Below are positions 5,725 to 25,805 of a DNA stretch of 25,805 nt, one piece after another. The notes under the pieces are model-generated. The model saw only the letters and a program-made list of their open reading frames with translations. It did not search any database and was not told the origin of the DNA. Made by a program: the position numbers and the translations under genes. The stretch is from a virus, in the IMG/VR virus record IMGVR_UViG_3300006751_000113, positions 1 through 25,805 of that record; one strand, 5' to 3'. Within the stretch, counting starts at the first letter, position 1, and each line of letters opens with the position of its first letter.

Positions 5725-7293
5725 TTAAAATTCCAAGATGATTTTAATGTCTTCTTTTTGTCTAGAATTACGTGCAATTAATGACCTATTGTTCAAATAG
5801 ATAATTTCACCTGATCCTTTATTTATCTCAGGACTAGCAAGACCTGCTGAGAACTGAGTATCTAAACTAATAAGTTTATTTCCAGTTGGATTGGTGGTAA
5901 TTCCAGTAAAGTTAGTATCAACTGCTCCAGAAAACCCAGAAATGCTAGTTACAGCATTTGCTGATGATTCAAAGGGTACAACTGTAGACATAGTTGTAAT
6001 ACCAGCATAATCTGTCGTATCATGAGTGGCAGCATTATAAAATAATGATCTATCACTCCAATATTTAAGAACCATAGTTTCAGCATCGTAAGATGCTGTA
6101 TATCCTTTGGCAATATCACCACTAGATGTTTCTTGATTAATTGCAACCCCAACTGTGGGAAGAGTTCCACTAACAGAAGAGAATTTAAGTGCACTTAAAG
6201 AAGAGTATTGATTTTCACTAAAGACCGAAGTTGATCCGATTGATGTTGGATTTTTTACAATACCAATTTGAGCGAATTTCGTATCTATTGGAAAATCTTT
6301 TGATGAATCATCAAATCTAGCATATATTAGAATCTTATCTGTCCCTAATTCTTTATATAAATCAAATCCATGCCCCTTTGAAGGTGGTATGATTGGAATT
6401 AGATTAGCATAAGATCCTTGAGCGTTAGTAGCGATATTGGTATTAATAGAACCAAGATCAACTACTCCATAAGTATATCCTTTACCACCAGATGATACGA
6501 TTGTTTTGGATATTTTACCGCTAACAACATCTACAACAACTTTACCACCAGAACCATCACCTATAATATTAACTTCTTGTCCTAGTCCACCTGAATATCC
6601 AAACCCTTGTTTGTCGATATAAACAGTTTTAATTTGATTATTATTGACCGTAGAGTCACCATTCTCTCTAACTGATTGTATTGGGGCATCAGTAGATGAT
6701 TCCCAACTATTAGGTACAGAAATATAATCAGTAGAATCAAATTTGATAATATCACTAGGAGGTACTGTAAAGAGATACTTCCAGATATAACCATCACCAC
6801 TTTCACCTGCTCTAGATGGTTCTAAATCAGTAAATAATGGTTCATCTTGTGAAGCATTACCTGTGGTTGAAATTCCCGATGATGCGTTTTCAATACAAAT
6901 ATAAACTTGGAAGTTTTTATTCATTACATAATAATTCGCATCATATAACCTAGAAGACTTTGTTATAGGTGATTGATTTGTAATATCATAATCATGACGA
7001 TACATCTCATATCTTGTTCCTGCTGTCCAATTAATCCTTTTAACTAATCGCCTAACATTAACACTGGTAACCTTTTTCCCAAAAATGGTAGTATCCCCAG
7101 TATGATCAAGATTATCAAAACTATCTACTGGACTTGGAATATTCGTATTCCACGTAGAAGTTCTTCCAAATCCAACAGTAGTCGGGTTCGGGAGTCCCAA
7201 GAAAACATAATAAGAGTTTGTAGGGTCTTCAATAGTCTCTACAAAGTTATTTGCGTTGAGAATTCTGAATTGATCTGTTACAATAGCAGCCAT
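5725..7293 (-). CDS. gp8: Baseplate wedge subunit gp8
   Basis: This 522-residue protein is recognised as the cyanophage form of T4 gp8, a baseplate wedge component. Diagnostic stretches are the N-terminus MAAIVTDQFRILNANNFVE, the SYYVFLGLPNP segment, FGKKVT near residue 73, the YEMYRHDY and SRLYDANYYVMNKNFQVYIC segments, and SGDGYIWKYLFTVPPSDIIKFDS near residues 165-185. It is clearly longer than T4 gp8 (334 residues). Part of the extra length is a glycine-rich beta module at about residues 225-285, with QGFGYSGG and GGKGYTYG turns, of the same type as in the giant and DUF4815 proteins. It starts 27 bases after the giant's stop, behind its own TATAAATA late promoter. The leader reads GCGGATTATAATG, with only a modest ribosome-binding site. 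Confidence 0.93.
   Translation of the reverse strand: MAAIVTDQFRILNANNFVETIEDPTNSYYVFLGLPNPTTVGFGRTSTWNTNIPSPVDSFDNLDHTGDTTIFGKKVTSVNVRRLVKRINWTAGTRYEMYRHDYDITNQSPITKSSRLYDANYYVMNKNFQVYICIENASSGISTTGNASQDEPLFTDLEPSRAGESGDGYIWKYLFTVPPSDIIKFDSTDYISVPNSWESSTDAPIQSVRENGDSTVNNNQIKTVYIDKQGFGYSGGLGQEVNIIGDGSGGKVVVDVVSGKISKTIVSSGGKGYTYGVVDLGSINTNIATNAQGSYANLIPIIPPSKGHGFDLYKELGTDKILIYARFDDSSKDFPIDTKFAQIGIVKNPTSIGSTSVFSENQYSSLSALKFSSVSGTLPTVGVAINQETSSGDIAKGYTASYDAETMVLKYWSDRSLFYNAATHDTTDYAGITTMSTVVPFESSANAVTSISGFSGAVDTNFTGITTNPTGNKLISLDTQFSAGLASPEINKGSGEIIYLNNRSLIARNSRQKEDIKIILEF
5820..5827 (-). promoter_or_regulatory. Candidate internal late promoter (GATAAATA) for the DUF4815 gene
   Basis: The minus strand reads GATAAATAAAGG inside the 3' end of gp8, 102 bases before the DUF4815 ATG. 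It fits the NATAAATA late consensus known in T4-like cyanophages and shares ATAAATAAAGG with the gp25 promoter at 23394-23401. It is only a sequence match; such 7-mers can occur by chance in AT-rich DNA. Confidence 0.4.
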
Positions 7294-21037: not shown

Positions 21038-22957
21038 TTATTCCCTGATTAATTCTCCATTTGTATGGCTTGATGTAACTTTAAATCCGATGCCAGATAT
21101 TTGTTCACCTGAAGAAATGGTGTCTTTAACCATATTTATTGAACTATCAGGGATGTTTAAATTCAAATACAGATCAGTTACTCCAATTACATCATTTGAG
21201 TCTGGTATTGCTTGAATTTCAACAATATCATTAGGTTCATCGGTAGATGTTATATTTACAGTAGTTAGATTTACAGTACCTGTTGTATAATTTACAGTTC
21301 CAGCAGATGCTATAACAACCATAAATTCATTAGTTTCTGCATCTTTCTTAACAACAGATAATACACCCAATCCACTACCATCTAAATTACCAGAACTATC
21401 CTTATTAGGAATGTCTGTAAGATAAACTGTATTCGAATTACCTGAGATTTTAAACCCGGTACTCTTTATATTTAACCCATTAGGACTGATATGGAATTTA
21501 TTACCATAACATAACTTATATTGGGCAAATTGATTAGTAACTGCCTTCAAATTTCTTCTAATTCTAACCCTTGTAATGTTAGATGTGATCGCACTATCAA
21601 TATTATCAATAACATTTAGTACTTTACTATACTTAAATCGCCCACCAAACTTATTAATATCACCAGATTCAGAATAAGTTGTCAAACTTTTAATAATATT
21701 ACTCCTTAAATCACTAACATTACTAACTTGACTACTATTATAGTAAATATAAGACTCTATTTCGACATAAAGTACCTTAAGATCTAATATTTTCTGATTA
21801 ATACCAGTCAAAGAGTAGTTCTTTAGGTTAGAAAGTATCTGTTGCTTGTCAAAATCAGATACATAATCACCATTTTTAGGTTTAATAGTGATAGAAACAG
21901 TCCCAAACTCAGGAGGATCTAGTTCTTCACCACCAACAACCGATACAGTCTCTGTATTTGGGTATATTTGTTGTATTATAGACTCATAGTCTCTTGCTGT
22001 AACTGCTCTATACTGTGCTGAATACAGTCTAGGAGCAAAATACTTAACAGAATCTAACGACTCAATGTCACCACCATTAGATGCAGCTATAATTGTATTA
22101 ATATCAGGTATATTAATAGGTGATATTATCTCATTAATTGACCCTGTTAGACTACCAGAGAATGAAAATAGTGAAGGTCCATTACCTTCTTTACCATCAG
22201 TAGTAATGTAAGTAACTGTTATGACAGCATTATCATCTAATTTCTTACCAAAGATACCATCACCAAACAATAATTCATATCTTTCGTCTTGAACTTCTTG
22301 TAATAAGTATGTCTCTGAACTAGATTTAATATTCAATATATTATCAATCTTCTTATATTCTCTACCAATACCACTATCACCTATACCTTTAACATATACA
22401 TTAATAGTAGATGTATCAATATAAGAATTATCTAAAGTAAATCTCTGATCTAATGAACCATCTACAACAAAAGACTTCGTTAAGTAAGTTCCTTGATATA
22501 AACTAATAGGATCTGTTGCTGTTCCAAAGGTAGAAACACCATTTTTAATCGTTGTTGTTATGTTTTCTGGTATCGAAAATACATACGACGTATCATTAAC
22601 AGCACCAACTGCCACTAACCCTGCCTGTAGCGTCATCGTAGGACTTGTAGAGGTAGTTGAGACACTAAATGTGACATCTGCCTTTGCTGCTGTCCTAGAA
22701 CGCGGTACGTATCCTATATTTCTAGCTAATGAAACAACATTCTCTCTTAATGTTGCAGAGTCTAAGAAAGACTCATTAACAATCATATTAGAGTTGAATG
22801 CTGTAATATACGTATTATATGCTAAAGTATCAATTAAAACTGAAAAGTTAGATCCTTCAAAGTCAAAATCCGTAAATGTACTATTCGCACGGAGATAATC
22901 TTTGATTGATACTTTTATTTGATCAAAATCTAAGTTTGTAAATTTAGTAAACGGCAT
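21038..22957 (-). CDS. gp6: Baseplate wedge subunit gp6
   Basis: This 639-residue protein is close in length to T4 gp6 (660), which joins neighbouring wedges into the baseplate ring. The N-terminus (FTNLDFDQIKVSIKDYLR, then FEGSNFSVLIDTLAYNTYI and VNESFLDSATLRENVVSLAR) is the conserved gp6 start. The middle contains the baseplate-J-like stretch AVTARDYESIIQQIYPNTE and VVGGEELDPPEFGTV (about residues 310-345). Its ATG lies 3 bases after the gp25 stop, and the AGGTAA that serves as the likely ribosome-binding site includes that stop codon, so it is probably coupled to gp25. It ends 1 base before the giant's start region, forming a compact gp25-gp6-giant operon. No abnormality seen. Confidence 0.95.
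   Translation of the reverse strand: MPFTKFTNLDFDQIKVSIKDYLRANSTFTDFDFEGSNFSVLIDTLAYNTYITAFNSNMIVNESFLDSATLRENVVSLARNIGYVPRSRTAAKADVTFSVSTTSTSPTMTLQAGLVAVGAVNDTSYVFSIPENITTTIKNGVSTFGTATDPISLYQGTYLTKSFVVDGSLDQRFTLDNSYIDTSTINVYVKGIGDSGIGREYKKIDNILNIKSSSETYLLQEVQDERYELLFGDGIFGKKLDDNAVITVTYITTDGKEGNGPSLFSFSGSLTGSINEIISPINIPDINTIIAASNGGDIESLDSVKYFAPRLYSAQYRAVTARDYESIIQQIYPNTETVSVVGGEELDPPEFGTVSITIKPKNGDYVSDFDKQQILSNLKNYSLTGINQKILDLKVLYVEIESYIYYNSSQVSNVSDLRSNIIKSLTTYSESGDINKFGGRFKYSKVLNVIDNIDSAITSNITRVRIRRNLKAVTNQFAQYKLCYGNKFHISPNGLNIKSTGFKISGNSNTVYLTDIPNKDSSGNLDGSGLGVLSVVKKDAETNEFMVVIASAGTVNYTTGTVNLTTVNITSTDEPNDIVEIQAIPDSNDVIGVTDLYLNLNIPDSSINMVKDTISSGEQISGIGFKVTSSHTNGELIRE
21133..21140 (-). promoter_or_regulatory. 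Candidate internal late promoter (AATAAATA) for the giant gene
   Basis: The minus strand reads AATAAATA within the 3' end of gp6, 97 bases before the giant's ATG. It fits NATAAATA, the late consensus of T4-like cyanophages. The first base differs from the two stronger TATAAATA sites. It could provide extra transcripts for the longest gene in the block but is a sequence match only. Confidence 0.35.
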
Positions 22958-22960
22958 ATC

Positions 22961-23368
22961 TTACCTAGTTGCTTCTAGAATAAAGGTGTATTCCTGTGGA
23001 AAATCTTGCCCTTGTCCTACAATTGTATAAAAGACACTCACTGCAAATTCATAATCATCAGGACGAGGTGTTACTTCTACTTGTAAATTCTCAATCCTAT
23101 CCTCAAAGTTATCTAGTGTAGTTTCAATTTGACTCTGAATATTGGACGCAGTACCATAATCTACAAAATTAAACAAACTAGAACGTACCTCCGATCCTAA
23201 TAAAGGATTGAAGAAACGTTCTGTTGGTATTGTTTCTACTAAATTACGTACAGATCTTTTAATTGCACTTTCATTTTTAAGTATAGGTAAATCCTTTGTT
23301 ACCGGATGTGGGATAAAGGAAAGACTTATATCTTTAAAGGTTCTAGATATTCTCTGAACGACGGCCAT
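22961..23368 (-). CDS. gp25: Baseplate wedge subunit gp25 (GPW/gp25 family)
   Basis: This 135-residue protein matches T4 gp25 (132 residues), the wedge protein that contacts the tail tube and sheath start and belongs to the GPW/gp25 lysozyme-like fold family found in contractile tails and type VI secretion. Key segments are FIPHPVTKDL (residues 18-27), the RNLVETIPTERFFNPLLGSE stretch (about 41-60) and the C-terminal YTIVGQGQDFPQEYTFILEA. It is the first gene of the late structural block, 26 bases after TATAAATA. No Shine-Dalgarno-like sequence stands before the ATG; instead the arm of an inverted repeat ends three bases upstream. The spacing to gp6 is 3 bases. Confidence 0.96.
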   Translation of the reverse strand: MAVVQRISRTFKDISLSFIPHPVTKDLPILKNESAIKRSVRNLVETIPTERFFNPLLGSEVRSSLFNFVDYGTASNIQSQIETTLDNFEDRIENLQVEVTPRPDDYEFAVSVFYTIVGQGQDFPQEYTFILEATR

Positions 23369-23371
23369 ATA

Positions 23372-23390
23372 GCAAGACAGTATTTCTTGC
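23372..23390 (-). promoter_or_regulatory. Inverted repeat just before the gp25 start codon
   Basis: The coding strand reads GCAAGA-AATACTG-TCTTGC, a 6-bp stem with a 7-base loop; a G-U pair can extend it. The downstream arm ends three bases before the gp25 ATG, so a folded hairpin would cover the ribosome-binding region. A late transcript starting about 6 bases after TATAAATA would begin inside the upstream arm and lose part of the stem. Confidence 0.7.
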
Positions 23391-23393
23391 CTT

Positions 23394-23401
23394 TATTTAT
23401 A
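23394..23401 (-). promoter_or_regulatory. T4-type late promoter (TATAAATA) of the gp25 operon
   Basis: This exact TATAAATA lies directly after the TAG stop of the 48-residue gene and 26 bases before gp25. The 11-base string TAGTATAAATA (stop codon plus promoter) is identical to the one before gp8 at 7313-7323. It should drive late expression of gp25, gp6 and the giant. Confidence 0.87.
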
Positions 23402-23548
23402 CTACCTACCCTGTCCTTTGTATTTTTTACGAGGCGAGTTACGCGAAGTCGCAGTATATTTCGTATGCTTACCAGTACCTTGACGAGTCTTTTTCGGCTG
23501 CGCCTCTACAAAACTCTCACCAGATAACGTTGTTCTTACTTTACTCAT
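23402..23548 (-). CDS. Very basic 48-residue protein, unknown function
   Basis: The frame runs ATG to TAG and begins MSKVRTTLSGESF. It has 13 Lys/Arg and only two acidic residues, with Gly and Ser spread through a C-terminal half that ends YKGQGR. It has no hydrophobic core of note, so it is probably disordered and may bind nucleic acid or an acidic partner. I recall similar short proteins beside the glycosyltransferase gene in other cyanophages but no function. An AGGGAG ribosome-binding site stands about 8 bases before the ATG, and the start overlaps the end of the 65-residue gene by 8 bases, which supports real, coupled translation. Its stop codon abuts the gp25 late promoter. Confidence 0.82.
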   Translation of the reverse strand: MSKVRTTLSGESFVEAQPKKTRQGTGKHTKYTATSRNSPRKKYKGQGR

Positions 23549-23738
23549 TTAATAACTCCCTATTATCGTATAAACTTGGTTCATCCTTCAACATCTCAGT
23601 TTTAAGATCGTCTGGATTGGGAGAACCGGTCTCATAAAAATCCCGTGATAAATCTCCCATTGTTTCGAAGTATTGATCCTCTGTTAAATTAGAATGAATC
23701 AACCTACCCTTACAGTAAATATTATACTTCTCTTTCAC
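23541..23738 (-). CDS. 65-residue conserved-type phage protein, unknown function
   Basis: This small protein starts with GTG, and the G of that codon is the last base of the upstream TAG stop (TAGTG), so translation probably restarts there. A GAGG about 10 bases upstream can serve as ribosome-binding site. The N-terminal part (YNIYCKGRLIHSNLTEDQYFETM) resembles short cyanophage proteins of the form YxxYxKxxxxxxxLxEEEF, predicted as a beta hairpin plus helix; the rest is acidic (pattern NPDDLKTEMLKDEP). It has no signal peptide or membrane segment. It lies between the glycosyltransferase-like gene and the basic 48-residue gene. Function not recognised. Confidence 0.8.
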   Translation of the reverse strand: MKEKYNIYCKGRLIHSNLTEDQYFETMGDLSRDFYETGSPNPDDLKTEMLKDEPSLYDNRELLNE

Positions 23739-24493
23739 TATATAACCCTCATCTTCTCATGTCCTACCCTTACCCTTGGATCACACCATATCTCATACCC
23801 TGCCTCCTTTGCATCTAAACAAAAACTAACATCTTCTCCACACATATCCTGTACCTCTCCACTCTCAAATACTTGCATCTTTGGAGCAAACCAAGGATAC
23901 TTCATCTCATCATTCTCCCATACACCATGCTTAATTAATAACCATCCAAATCCTGTATAGTCAACTTGAAAAGGTTTTCTCCTCTTACTCATACTCTCAA
24001 TAGTCTCATGATTCATTACTCCACCATTACTTCTGAAATCATCCTCATCCATCCAATGTGCTACAGATGTAGTCTTACCATCCTCCGTACAATACCATCC
24101 ACTTGCTAAATCTTTATCCATTAATACTAATTGCCAAAACTTCTCAGTATTAAACACTATATCACTATCAATCCATAATTGCCAATCATAATGTAACTTA
24201 CCATCCCAAGGTTTTTGATTAGGTCCTCTTAATACATTCGCACCTAAACACTTACATCTAGCAAAGTTTACCATACTAGAGTAATCTTGACTGATCTGTA
24301 TACTGGCTCCTGCTTGAACTAAATCAAAACATAGTTGAACGAAACTCTTTAAGTATGCATATGATACTCCTCTACCAGGTAAACAAAATACAATAGTCTT
24401 ACCCTTGACCATTGCCTTCGCTGCATCATAATCCCATTCTGGTTCTTTAACCTTCTTAGGTGCGTTTGCTTTAACAGTAAATCCTTTAGCCAT
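23738..24493 (-). CDS. GT-A-fold glycosyltransferase-like protein
   Basis: This 251-residue protein has the features of a GT-A glycosyltransferase. A strand and turn TIVFCLPGRGVSYAY (about 33-47) begins the nucleotide-sugar-binding half, and DYSSMVNFARCKCL follows. A DxD-type metal motif lies in WIDSDIVF (Asp109-Ser-Asp111), and a C-terminal GED...AGYEIWCDP...VGH stretch (about 219-245) resembles the acidic and final His motifs of family GT2. The first 25 residues are lysine-rich and probably outside the fold. I recognise close relatives in cyanophages, where the substrate is unknown; it might modify virion, host surface or DNA. The start is supported by AAAGGA 5 bases before the ATG and by an exact sigma70 promoter upstream. 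It has eight cysteines, unusually many here. It is first of a three-gene coupled cluster. Confidence 0.8.
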   Translation of the reverse strand: MAKGFTVKANAPKKVKEPEWDYDAAKAMVKGKTIVFCLPGRGVSYAYLKSFVQLCFDLVQAGASIQISQDYSSMVNFARCKCLGANVLRGPNQKPWDGKLHYDWQLWIDSDIVFNTEKFWQLVLMDKDLASGWYCTEDGKTTSVAHWMDEDDFRSNGGVMNHETIESMSKRRKPFQVDYTGFGWLLIKHGVWENDEMKYPWFAPKMQVFESGEVQDMCGEDVSFCLDAKEAGYEIWCDPRVRVGHEKMRVI

Positions 24494-24516
24494 AATTCCT
24501 TTAGTGCTTCAATTCA

Positions 24517-24545
24517 ATTATATCAGTTTATATAGTAAATGTCAA
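24517..24545 (-). promoter_or_regulatory. Consensus sigma70-type promoter of the glycosyltransferase cluster
   Basis: The minus strand has TTGACA (24545-24540), a 17-base spacer and TATAAT (24522-24517), with TGA before the -10 giving an extended TGnTATAAT. Every position is consensus. The start site would lie near 24510, leaving a leader of about 17 bases. This type fits an early or host-polymerase promoter, in contrast to the late promoters downstream. Confidence 0.88.
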
Positions 24546-24559
24546 TCTCGCTAACACTC

Positions 24560-24733
24560 TCATTGGTCATCTGTCATTATAATAATATCTCCGTTATCTA
24601 CAACAAACCTTACCCCTGTTCCCTCATACCATCCTTCCCCATTTATTAACCACTCTGGTAAATTAACATAATATTCACCAGTTACCGTATCAACCTCTAT
24701 GAGCCGAAAATTATCATCGGTATTTTTTTTCAT
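24560..24733 (-). CDS. 57-residue protein, possible AbrB-like swapped-hairpin domain
   Basis: The frame runs from ATG (24733) to TGA. It starts MKKNTDDNFRLIEVD and continues with TGEYYVNLPEWLI, GWYEGT and a VDNGDIII strand near the end. The pattern strand - LPxxL - GWxxGTxVxF - DNGDIxI is like the AbrB/MazE-type DNA-binding hairpin, of which short versions occur in cyanophages; this is a pattern judgement without a search. It is acidic, which is less typical of a DNA binder. There is no clear ribosome-binding site before the ATG, but a TATAAT lies about 23 bases upstream. The stop is 15 bases before the -35 of the glycosyltransferase promoter. Codon use and GC resemble the AT-rich genes to the left rather than those to the right. 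Confidence 0.7.
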   Translation of the reverse strand: MKKNTDDNFRLIEVDTVTGEYYVNLPEWLINGEGWYEGTGVRFVVDNGDIIIMTDDQ

Positions 24734-24755
24734 ATAACTGAAATCACATATCGAA

Positions 24756-24875: not shown

Positions 24876-24978
24876 ATATATCGGTCGTTCGTAACACTTT
24901 GTAGGTTAGGGGAGTCATCGAAAATCAACGACGGGGGCGCGAACGGGGCACGACTGCTGATTCACGAACGAATGGCAT

Positions 24979-25006
24979 AAAAAAGGCAGGGTCATCACTC
25001 CTGCCT
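24979..25006 (-). terminator. Rho-independent terminator after the GC-rich gene pair
   Basis: On the minus strand AGGCAGG (25006-25000) pairs with CCTGCCT (24990-24984) across a 9-base loop, followed by a run of six T. It lies about 50 bases after the stop of the 144-residue gene and would insulate the genes to the left from it. Confidence 0.88.
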
Positions 25007-25058
25007 AATAACCTTTATCCACTCTGCATCCTTTTAGGGCGATTGCACTCCCATGCGC

Positions 25059-25493
25059 CTAATGACCCTTAAACCGATTGAAGTCGATTGCCTGTAATGC
25101 GCCAAGCAGTCCTTTTGCATAATCCTTTAGACCCGTCGCATTCTTGACCGACTGATCTAGGAAATTGCATGACTGCGCGGCGATGTCGATGGCGTTGTCC
25201 GTGTGGCGGTCTGAGAAAAGACGAAACTCACGAAGGATGGCAGGACGATCACCCGCATGCAGAACATAGGCAGCGGCAAGGGCATCATACTCTTCGGGCA
25301 ACCACGTGCGCTCCGATGCCTTGACTGCTTTGACCGTTGCTTCAATTGCACTGGTCAAAATCTGACGACCACGCTTGAAAAGCACGCGGTCTTCCCTGTC
25401 ACCTAGATTCGCCAAACCAAATGCTTTCACGTATGCTGCGTTCTCTTCGTAGAATTCGATCGCGTCTTGCTGGTCTGAGGTGAATGCTGTCAT
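25059..25493 (-). CDS. 144-residue protein, possible Myb/SANT-like helix-turn-helix segment
   Basis: I place the start at the ATG at 25493 (MTAFTSDQQDAIEFYEEN). An in-frame GTG at 25577 would add 28 residues with a Pro/His-rich, unconserved-looking sequence and is less likely. The protein is mainly helical. Its centre (about residues 63-112) reads W-x2-EEYDALAAAYV, GDRPAILREF, RHTDNAI and C-x3-LD, a three-helix spacing like Myb/SANT or related helix-turn-helix domains; this is inference from pattern only. No membrane segment or signal peptide is visible. The coding sequence is about 50% GC, much richer than the structural genes, with G/C-ending codons. It is followed by a strong terminator and preceded by another GC-rich small gene. 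Overall function not recognised. Confidence 0.72.
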   Translation of the reverse strand: MTAFTSDQQDAIEFYEENAAYVKAFGLANLGDREDRVLFKRGRQILTSAIEATVKAVKASERTWLPEEYDALAAAYVLHAGDRPAILREFRLFSDRHTDNAIDIAAQSCNFLDQSVKNATGLKDYAKGLLGALQAIDFNRFKGH

Positions 25494-25586
25494 GATGGGG
25501 TGGGGTTGCTTTACTCTCTTATAATACACGGTTTTGGGGTGCTGTGGTAGAAAAGTGTGCACCTCATAAACCGTCACACGATACTG

Positions 25587-25805
25587 CTAACGACCAACCC
25601 CCATGCTAAAATTAGCGTAAGAGAAAACTTCACGGTCAACCAGTTTCCATGATCCTGCTTCGGTGTGCATCACGTATCCTTCCGCGTCAACTGCCTCATC
25701 CTGAATCCATGCGTCAGGTCCATCGCCGTGGCAGCACAAATCGAGTGCCTGTTCCTTGATCGCTTTCACTAGAACCCAAAGGCGGACCAACTGATAATTT
25801 GCGAA
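25587..25805 (-). CDS. Small unknown protein, 5' end outside the window
   Basis: The frame is open from the stop (TAG) at 25587 to the right edge. A TTG at 25790 could be read as a start, but the codons before it (FANYQ in the same frame) continue without a stop, so the true start is probably just outside. The 72 visible residues include LVRLWVLVKAIKEQALDLC, a likely amphipathic helix, then an acidic stretch with DGPDAWIQDEA and a C-terminal SWKLVDREVFSYANFSMG. No family is recognised. GC is about 50%, as in the 144-residue gene that follows it, and the two are probably co-transcribed. Confidence 0.65.
   Translation of the reverse strand, partial: FANYQLVRLWVLVKAIKEQALDLCCHGDGPDAWIQDEAVDAEGYVMHTEAGSWKLVDREVFSYANFSMGVGR

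Follow-up and report, generated by a model that had tools for sequence, protein, structure and literature searches.

In bacteriophage T4, genes e, 49, soc, I-TevI, I-TevII and segB are preceded by a late promoter that overlaps an inhibitory hairpin in the leader (PMC3014915, PMC2988022), and the T4 late motif occupies positions -13 to -6 relative to the transcription start (PMC1524935). The leader hairpin of T4 gene 25 has the opposite effect, as it enhances translation by bringing a distant Shine-Dalgarno sequence to the AUG (PMC3014915). No description of the T4-type hairpin/late-promoter arrangement in cyanophages was found in the open-access literature searched. We analyzed a leader of similar layout in front of the baseplate gene gp25 of a T4-like cyanophage, represented by a 25.8-kb virus record (G000; this whole stretch of DNA is referred to as the window) in which the genes considered here all lie on the minus strand. 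The genes concerned and the promoter of the upstream gene cluster are:

22961 to 23368, minus strand: gp25, baseplate wedge subunit (Pfam PF04965, 2.9e-12; PHROGs phrog_261, 1.5e-50)
21038 to 22957, minus strand: gp6, baseplate wedge subunit, the gene after gp25 (Pfam/PHROGs; phrog_219, 4e-196)
5725 to 7293, minus strand: gp8
23402 to 23548, minus strand: 48-aa ORF, phrog_516; its stop codon (23404-23402) is directly next to the late promoter (sequence, PHROGs)
23541 to 23738, minus strand: 65-aa ORF, phrog_3252, upstream cluster (PHROGs)
23738 to 24493, minus strand: 251-aa ORF, phrog_1574, upstream cluster (PHROGs)
24517 to 24545, minus strand: perfect sigma70 promoter, TTGACA-N17-TATAAT, presumed early (12/12 matches)

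The gp25 leader resembles the T4 e/49/I-TevI type in having a late promoter just upstream of the gene, a hairpin that is computed to lie over the initiation region of read-through RNA, and a predicted late start inside the 5' arm of this hairpin. It differs from that type in the cyanophage host, in preceding a baseplate gene, in the lack of a Shine-Dalgarno sequence in the late leader and in being known from sequence and computed folds only. With T4 gene 25 it shares the identity of the gene and a hairpin between an upstream sequence and the AUG, but here the late promoter overlaps the stem and the Shine-Dalgarno-like word would be missing from the predicted late RNA; the 80 nt preceding T4 gene 25 showed no TATAAATA. 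The initial annotation of this locus, which proposed an early-off, late-on switch on the precedent of T4 genes e, soc and 49, overlooked the enhancing leader hairpin of T4 gene 25 itself.

The late promoter is the solid part of the observation and is near-universal at gp25. Loci were collected from IMG/VR with six protein queries (the S-RIM2 query gave three loci) and from named phages, and N[AC]TAAATA was present in 370 of the 374 usable gp25 leaders, most commonly 20-23 nt before the start. The strand distribution of ATAAATA in P-SSM2 is 61 on the coding strand vs 5 on the opposite strand, and other cyanophage genomes are biased likewise. The whole window holds four occurrences of ATAAATA vs about 18 expected, all on the minus strand, as if the word were avoided outside promoters. 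The elements of the leader are located as follows:

23394 to 23401, minus strand: T4-type late promoter TATAAATA (sequence; N[AC]TAAATA common at gp25; ATAAATA strand bias)
23388, minus strand: predicted late transcription start (+1), sixth base after TATAAATA, placed by T4 geometry
23385 to 23391, minus strand: 5' arm of the inner hairpin, GGCAAGA, holding the predicted +1 (sequence, fold)
23371 to 23377, minus strand: 3' arm of the inner hairpin, TCTTGCT, next to the gp25 start (sequence, fold)
23398 to 23406, minus strand: 5' arm of the outer helix, GGUAGUAUA, overlapping the promoter and present in read-through RNA only (MFE fold)
23363 to 23371, minus strand: 3' arm of the outer helix, UAUAUGGCC, including gp25 start-codon bases (MFE fold)

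Direct reading of the minus strand gives TATAAATA at 23401-23394, GCAAGA at 23390-23385, a loop AATACTG, TCTTGC at 23377-23372, TAT, and the ATG at 23368-23366. The 6-bp inverted repeat GCAAGA/TCTTGC described in the initial annotation is present, with its downstream arm ending three bases before the gp25 ATG; the spacing between TATAAATA and the repeat, given there as four bases, is three (23393-23391). Including one G-U pair (23391/23371), the stem reaches 7 bp. The inner hairpin alone has a folding energy of -7.8 kcal/mol (z -3.3), which was equaled or bettered in 2 of 200 shuffles, and the 25 nt between the motif and the ATG (GGCAAGA-AAUACUG-UCUUGCU) were matched in stability by 20 of 3000 shuffles. 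In longer read-through RNA, the predicted fold adds an outer helix of GGU.GUAUA with UAUAU.GCC in which two start-codon bases are paired, and with this outer helix formed the inner helix has two competing registers. For read-through RNA, the computed probability of being unpaired was 0.01-0.42 for the AUG and on average 0.06-0.21 for bases -12 to -1, whereas RNA starting at 23388 gave a mean of 0.64 over the same bases. In the proposed comparison of read-through and late leader, the start is thus predicted to be masked in the former and open in RNA starting at 23388. The late start had been expected within the first arm of the repeat, and the position given by T4 geometry, 23388, lies in the 5' arm, where the predicted start abolishes the stem. 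Predicted folds keep neither helix when the RNA starts at 23388 or later and keep the inner stem when it starts at 23390 or earlier. The early-off/late-on reading depends on the start position, since 23388 is taken from T4, with the motif at -13 to -6. An intrinsic terminator or attenuator was considered for the hairpin and rejected: on the sense strand the gp25 stem is followed by AUAUGG instead of a U-run, and the sole terminator-like match at the hairpin lies on the opposite strand, where it complements the promoter region and has no visible plus-strand gene to serve.

The strong sigma70-type promoter that had been proposed upstream of gp25 was found intact in front of the 251-aa phrog_1574 ORF. 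A TTGAC-/TAT--T pair precedes the same gene in P-SSM2, S-SRM01, S-SSM7, S-CAM9 and P-TIM68, five of the six other phages inspected, and an early-type start before the upstream cluster therefore looks conserved; in the sixth phage, S-SKS1, no -35/-10 pair was found, and its annotated start is maybe too far downstream. The claim that no terminator separates this promoter from gp25 holds for strong terminators; the only terminator-like site in between on the minus strand is weak and lies inside a coding region (24415-24390). The interval between gp46 and gp25 has been described as a hotspot with small genes (PMC3037559). The 48-aa phrog_516 protein (PKKTRQG...KYRGQG) is encoded upstream of gp25 in nearly 300 fetched loci, and in several annotated phages auxiliary genes for ferredoxin, oxygenase, CP12 and AdoMet decarboxylase, absent in the window, lie between the two. 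The upstream gene cluster (23550-24750) has a very strong GC skew (-0.3 to -0.67), which is not seen from gp25 onward. The end of the window (24900-25805) has about 50% GC vs about 35% elsewhere, lacks the strong skew and has a match to phage DNA limited to 72 bp of S-CAM3; it may be a recent import or a chimeric contig end.

Combining these elements, we propose that RNA polymerase from the early promoter at 24545-24517 would read through into gp25, and that the resulting RNA would fold into a two-layer hairpin (inner helix GGCAAGA/UCUUGCU, outer helix GGU.GUAUA/UAUAU.GCC). This hairpin would cover part of the AUG and the region where the 30S subunit lands, leaving gp25 poorly translated. Late polymerase with a phage gp55-type sigma factor would initiate within the 5' arm, at about 23388, and the late RNA would lack the stem and carry a short open leader. 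Whether the gp25 leader acts as an early-off, late-on element in this way is, in our estimate, evenly balanced. One point against the switch is that ribosomes could melt the outer helix, which lies immediately beyond the stop codon of the preceding ORF.

In a real switch, structure should cross the late start site and be removed by starting there. A spanning score was therefore defined as the ensemble energy of the whole leader minus those of its two segments, upstream and downstream of the start, and was compared with dinucleotide shuffles in which the promoter was preserved. In the T4 control, the six top leaders included I-TevI (-16.4), gene 49 (-14.3), I-TevII (-13.2), segB (-12.4) and e (-12.0), all reported as hairpin-controlled late genes of T4 (PMC3014915 or PMC2988022). 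Among the three T4 genes originally cited as precedent, e and 49 are thus recovered, while soc has a weaker score (-5.8, p 0.05). Strong scores for spanning structure were also obtained for both of two divergent T4 late leaders that share overlapping TATAAATA motifs (T4T 116440-116491). The gp25 leader of the window scored -13.1 kcal/mol, in the same range as T4 e, 49, I-TevI, I-TevII and segB, and 4 of 3000 shuffles were as low. It was the strongest among 118 deduplicated gp25 leaders, in a scan that possibly took CTAAATA over ATAAATA in some leaders; a repeat scan preferred ATAAATA. The gp8 gene of the same window has a late promoter and a spanning score of about 0.

The stem was not retained among relatives. 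In 21 related leaders that share CAAGA with the window, 49% of the stem cells were paired, and the alignment of these leaders, from which compensatory changes had been hoped for, contained no double-sided changes in the stem. RNAalifold found no consensus structure in the related CAAGA leaders, and most close relatives have a weak stem or none, a loss that the initial annotation had itself named as evidence against the switch. The T4 e stem is kept in close relatives, unlike the gp25 stem here, although such retention is not a strict criterion. The 5' side of the CAAGA leaders is nearly invariant and the 3' side variable, and the fixed 5' side is better explained by constraints on the promoter or the initial transcript. 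Another clade has a different two-layer structure, with TGTCAT/ATGGCA as outer and ACAGG/CCTGT as inner helix, in which 95% of the cells are paired and changes are single-sided only. In the leaders of one clade (L005, L008, L012, L022, L047, L049, L061 and L067) base pairs form between the gp25 ATG and the CAT of CATAAATA (TGTCAT/ATGGCA), so that in read-through RNA of that clade the start codon would be masked by the promoter itself. In the gp25 leaders of S-RIM2 (GATGTGA-TAA-TCGCATC) and P-TIM68 (TACTGTAA/TTATAGTA), this position is occupied by unrelated stems that also span the predicted late start site. Given these unrelated stems in other clades, in S-RIM2 and in P-TIM68, structure recurs at the gp25 leader position, but no single stem is inherited throughout.

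Spanning structure was also analyzed in the late leaders of eight cyanophage genomes. Late leaders of genes other than gp25 showed a shift of about -1.0 kcal/mol vs shuffles, and the shift and excess were largest with the break placed about +4 to +8 after the motif; 250 gene starts without late motif showed a shift of +0.45. When compared with 696 control gene starts that have an intergenic gap of at least 35 nt and no late motif, significant leaders (p<=0.033) made up 17 of 129 late leaders (13.2%) vs 25 of 696 controls (3.6%; Fisher 6e-5), and strong structures 16.3% vs 7.2% (p 0.0017), p-values that are only indicative because leaders are related by descent. As a set, gp25 leaders were modestly enriched (6/64 at p<=1/31). 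The idea that gp25 leaders are more strongly structured than those of other late genes was dropped, as both showed the same modest shift. Among late leaders, structure had no relation to the gap to the upstream gene, and leaders with and without an upstream terminator-like T-run were alike, contrary to the predicted excess without T-run. Several of the strongest cyanophage leaders precede genes for homing endonucleases, endonuclease VII-like proteins or other nucleases. In a homology search nucleases followed 7 of the 20 top-scoring leaders vs 0 of 10 weak ones, a comparison for which a Fisher test is circular since the queries were taken from the top hits; of six other homologues in the nuclease test none was strong and two were at p<0.1. 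The link of strong leaders with endonuclease genes, as in T4, is suggestive only.

A second arrangement was found at 11 late motifs in these eight genomes, six of them in S-CAM7, which are directly followed by an intrinsic terminator. In eight of these 11 terminators, vs about 0.4 expected, the 5' arm starts between -3 and +2 counted from the motif end, and as the terminators begin within a few bases of the motif the late start would fall in or near their 5' arm. Loci with such an overlap are L460, L467, L437, L471, L477, L478, L479, L480, L402 and L410, and examples lie before a 725-aa major-head-like gene in S-RIM2 and before phrog_13937 genes in S-CAM9 and S-T4. Like the gp25 hairpin, these terminators place the late start in or next to a 5' arm; unlike it, they have a U-run and would stop read-through transcription. 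A late start inside the terminator arm would spare the late transcript from termination, and an equally open reading of the 11 sites is the compaction of terminator and promoter into one stretch.

The main rival to the switch is a genuine late promoter combined with a functionless stem that arose by chance from A/T-rich sequence, which we consider a possible but less probable state of affairs. It would account for the lost or weakened stem of most close relatives, in which TATAAATA and the AAGAAA after it are fixed, for the failure of RNAalifold to find a consensus in related leaders, and for the promoter of gp8 in the window, which comes without such structure. It sits less well with the few shuffles that reach the spanning score of the gp25 leader, with the enrichment of late leaders as a class over matched controls, and with the avoidance of structure at this place by ordinary gene starts.

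Two further readings give the hairpin another role. A split ribosome-binding site as in T4 genes 25 and 38, with the hairpin bringing a distant Shine-Dalgarno sequence AAAGG (about 23394-23390) to the AUG and thereby enhancing translation, has a proven counterpart in the hairpin between Shine-Dalgarno and AUG of T4 gene 25 (PMC3014915), and on read-through RNA AAAGG does lie about 21 nt upstream with the stem in between. It is nevertheless very improbable: the G bases of AAAGG are taken up by the stem, AAAGG would precede the predicted late start, the outer helix pairs the start codon, Shine-Dalgarno-like words at -30 to -16 are as frequent in gp25 leaders (12%) as in other late leaders (11%), and the arrangement is reported to be lacking in distant, non-coliform T4 relatives (PMC3014915). 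The hairpin may alternatively act on reinitiation, limiting access to gp25 by ribosomes that terminate at phrog_516, or on RNA stability by protecting a processed 5' end. The phrog_516 stop codon directly adjoins the promoter, and the start of the stem roughly coincides with the expected end of a ribosome terminating there, but most relatives have phrog_516 and gp25 separated by other genes, so that coupling of the two is not a conserved theme, and we regard this reading as unlikely.

The early-off/late-on reading is the best single explanation of the gp25 leader; it is plausible and partly supported, with about the same chance of being right as wrong. It draws on the sequence, the conservation of the promoter, the predicted folds and the enrichment, from which we infer where late RNA starts, that read-through occurs and how translation is affected; for this reason, and because the stem is not conserved, membership in the T4 kind is unproven, and the leader is a probable case of the T4 hairpin switch, not a conserved gp25 switch. 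The statistics suggest that many late genes of cyanobacterial viruses use a T4-type switch. Tentatively, and with some doubt, cyanobacterial T4-like phages may insulate late genes, including structural genes such as gp25, from early read-through across the genome: the late start would lie within the 5' arm either of a leader hairpin (blocking translation) or of an intrinsic terminator (blocking transcription), and stems would turn over fast around a fixed promoter, with the gp25 leader of the window as one strong instance. So far, the genes for which the T4 hairpin switch has been discussed are those of lysozyme and endonucleases and a few others in T4. If the switch operates at gp25, its range would include the start of a baseplate operon in cyanophages, and it would explain the early silence of late genes sited directly behind early clusters.
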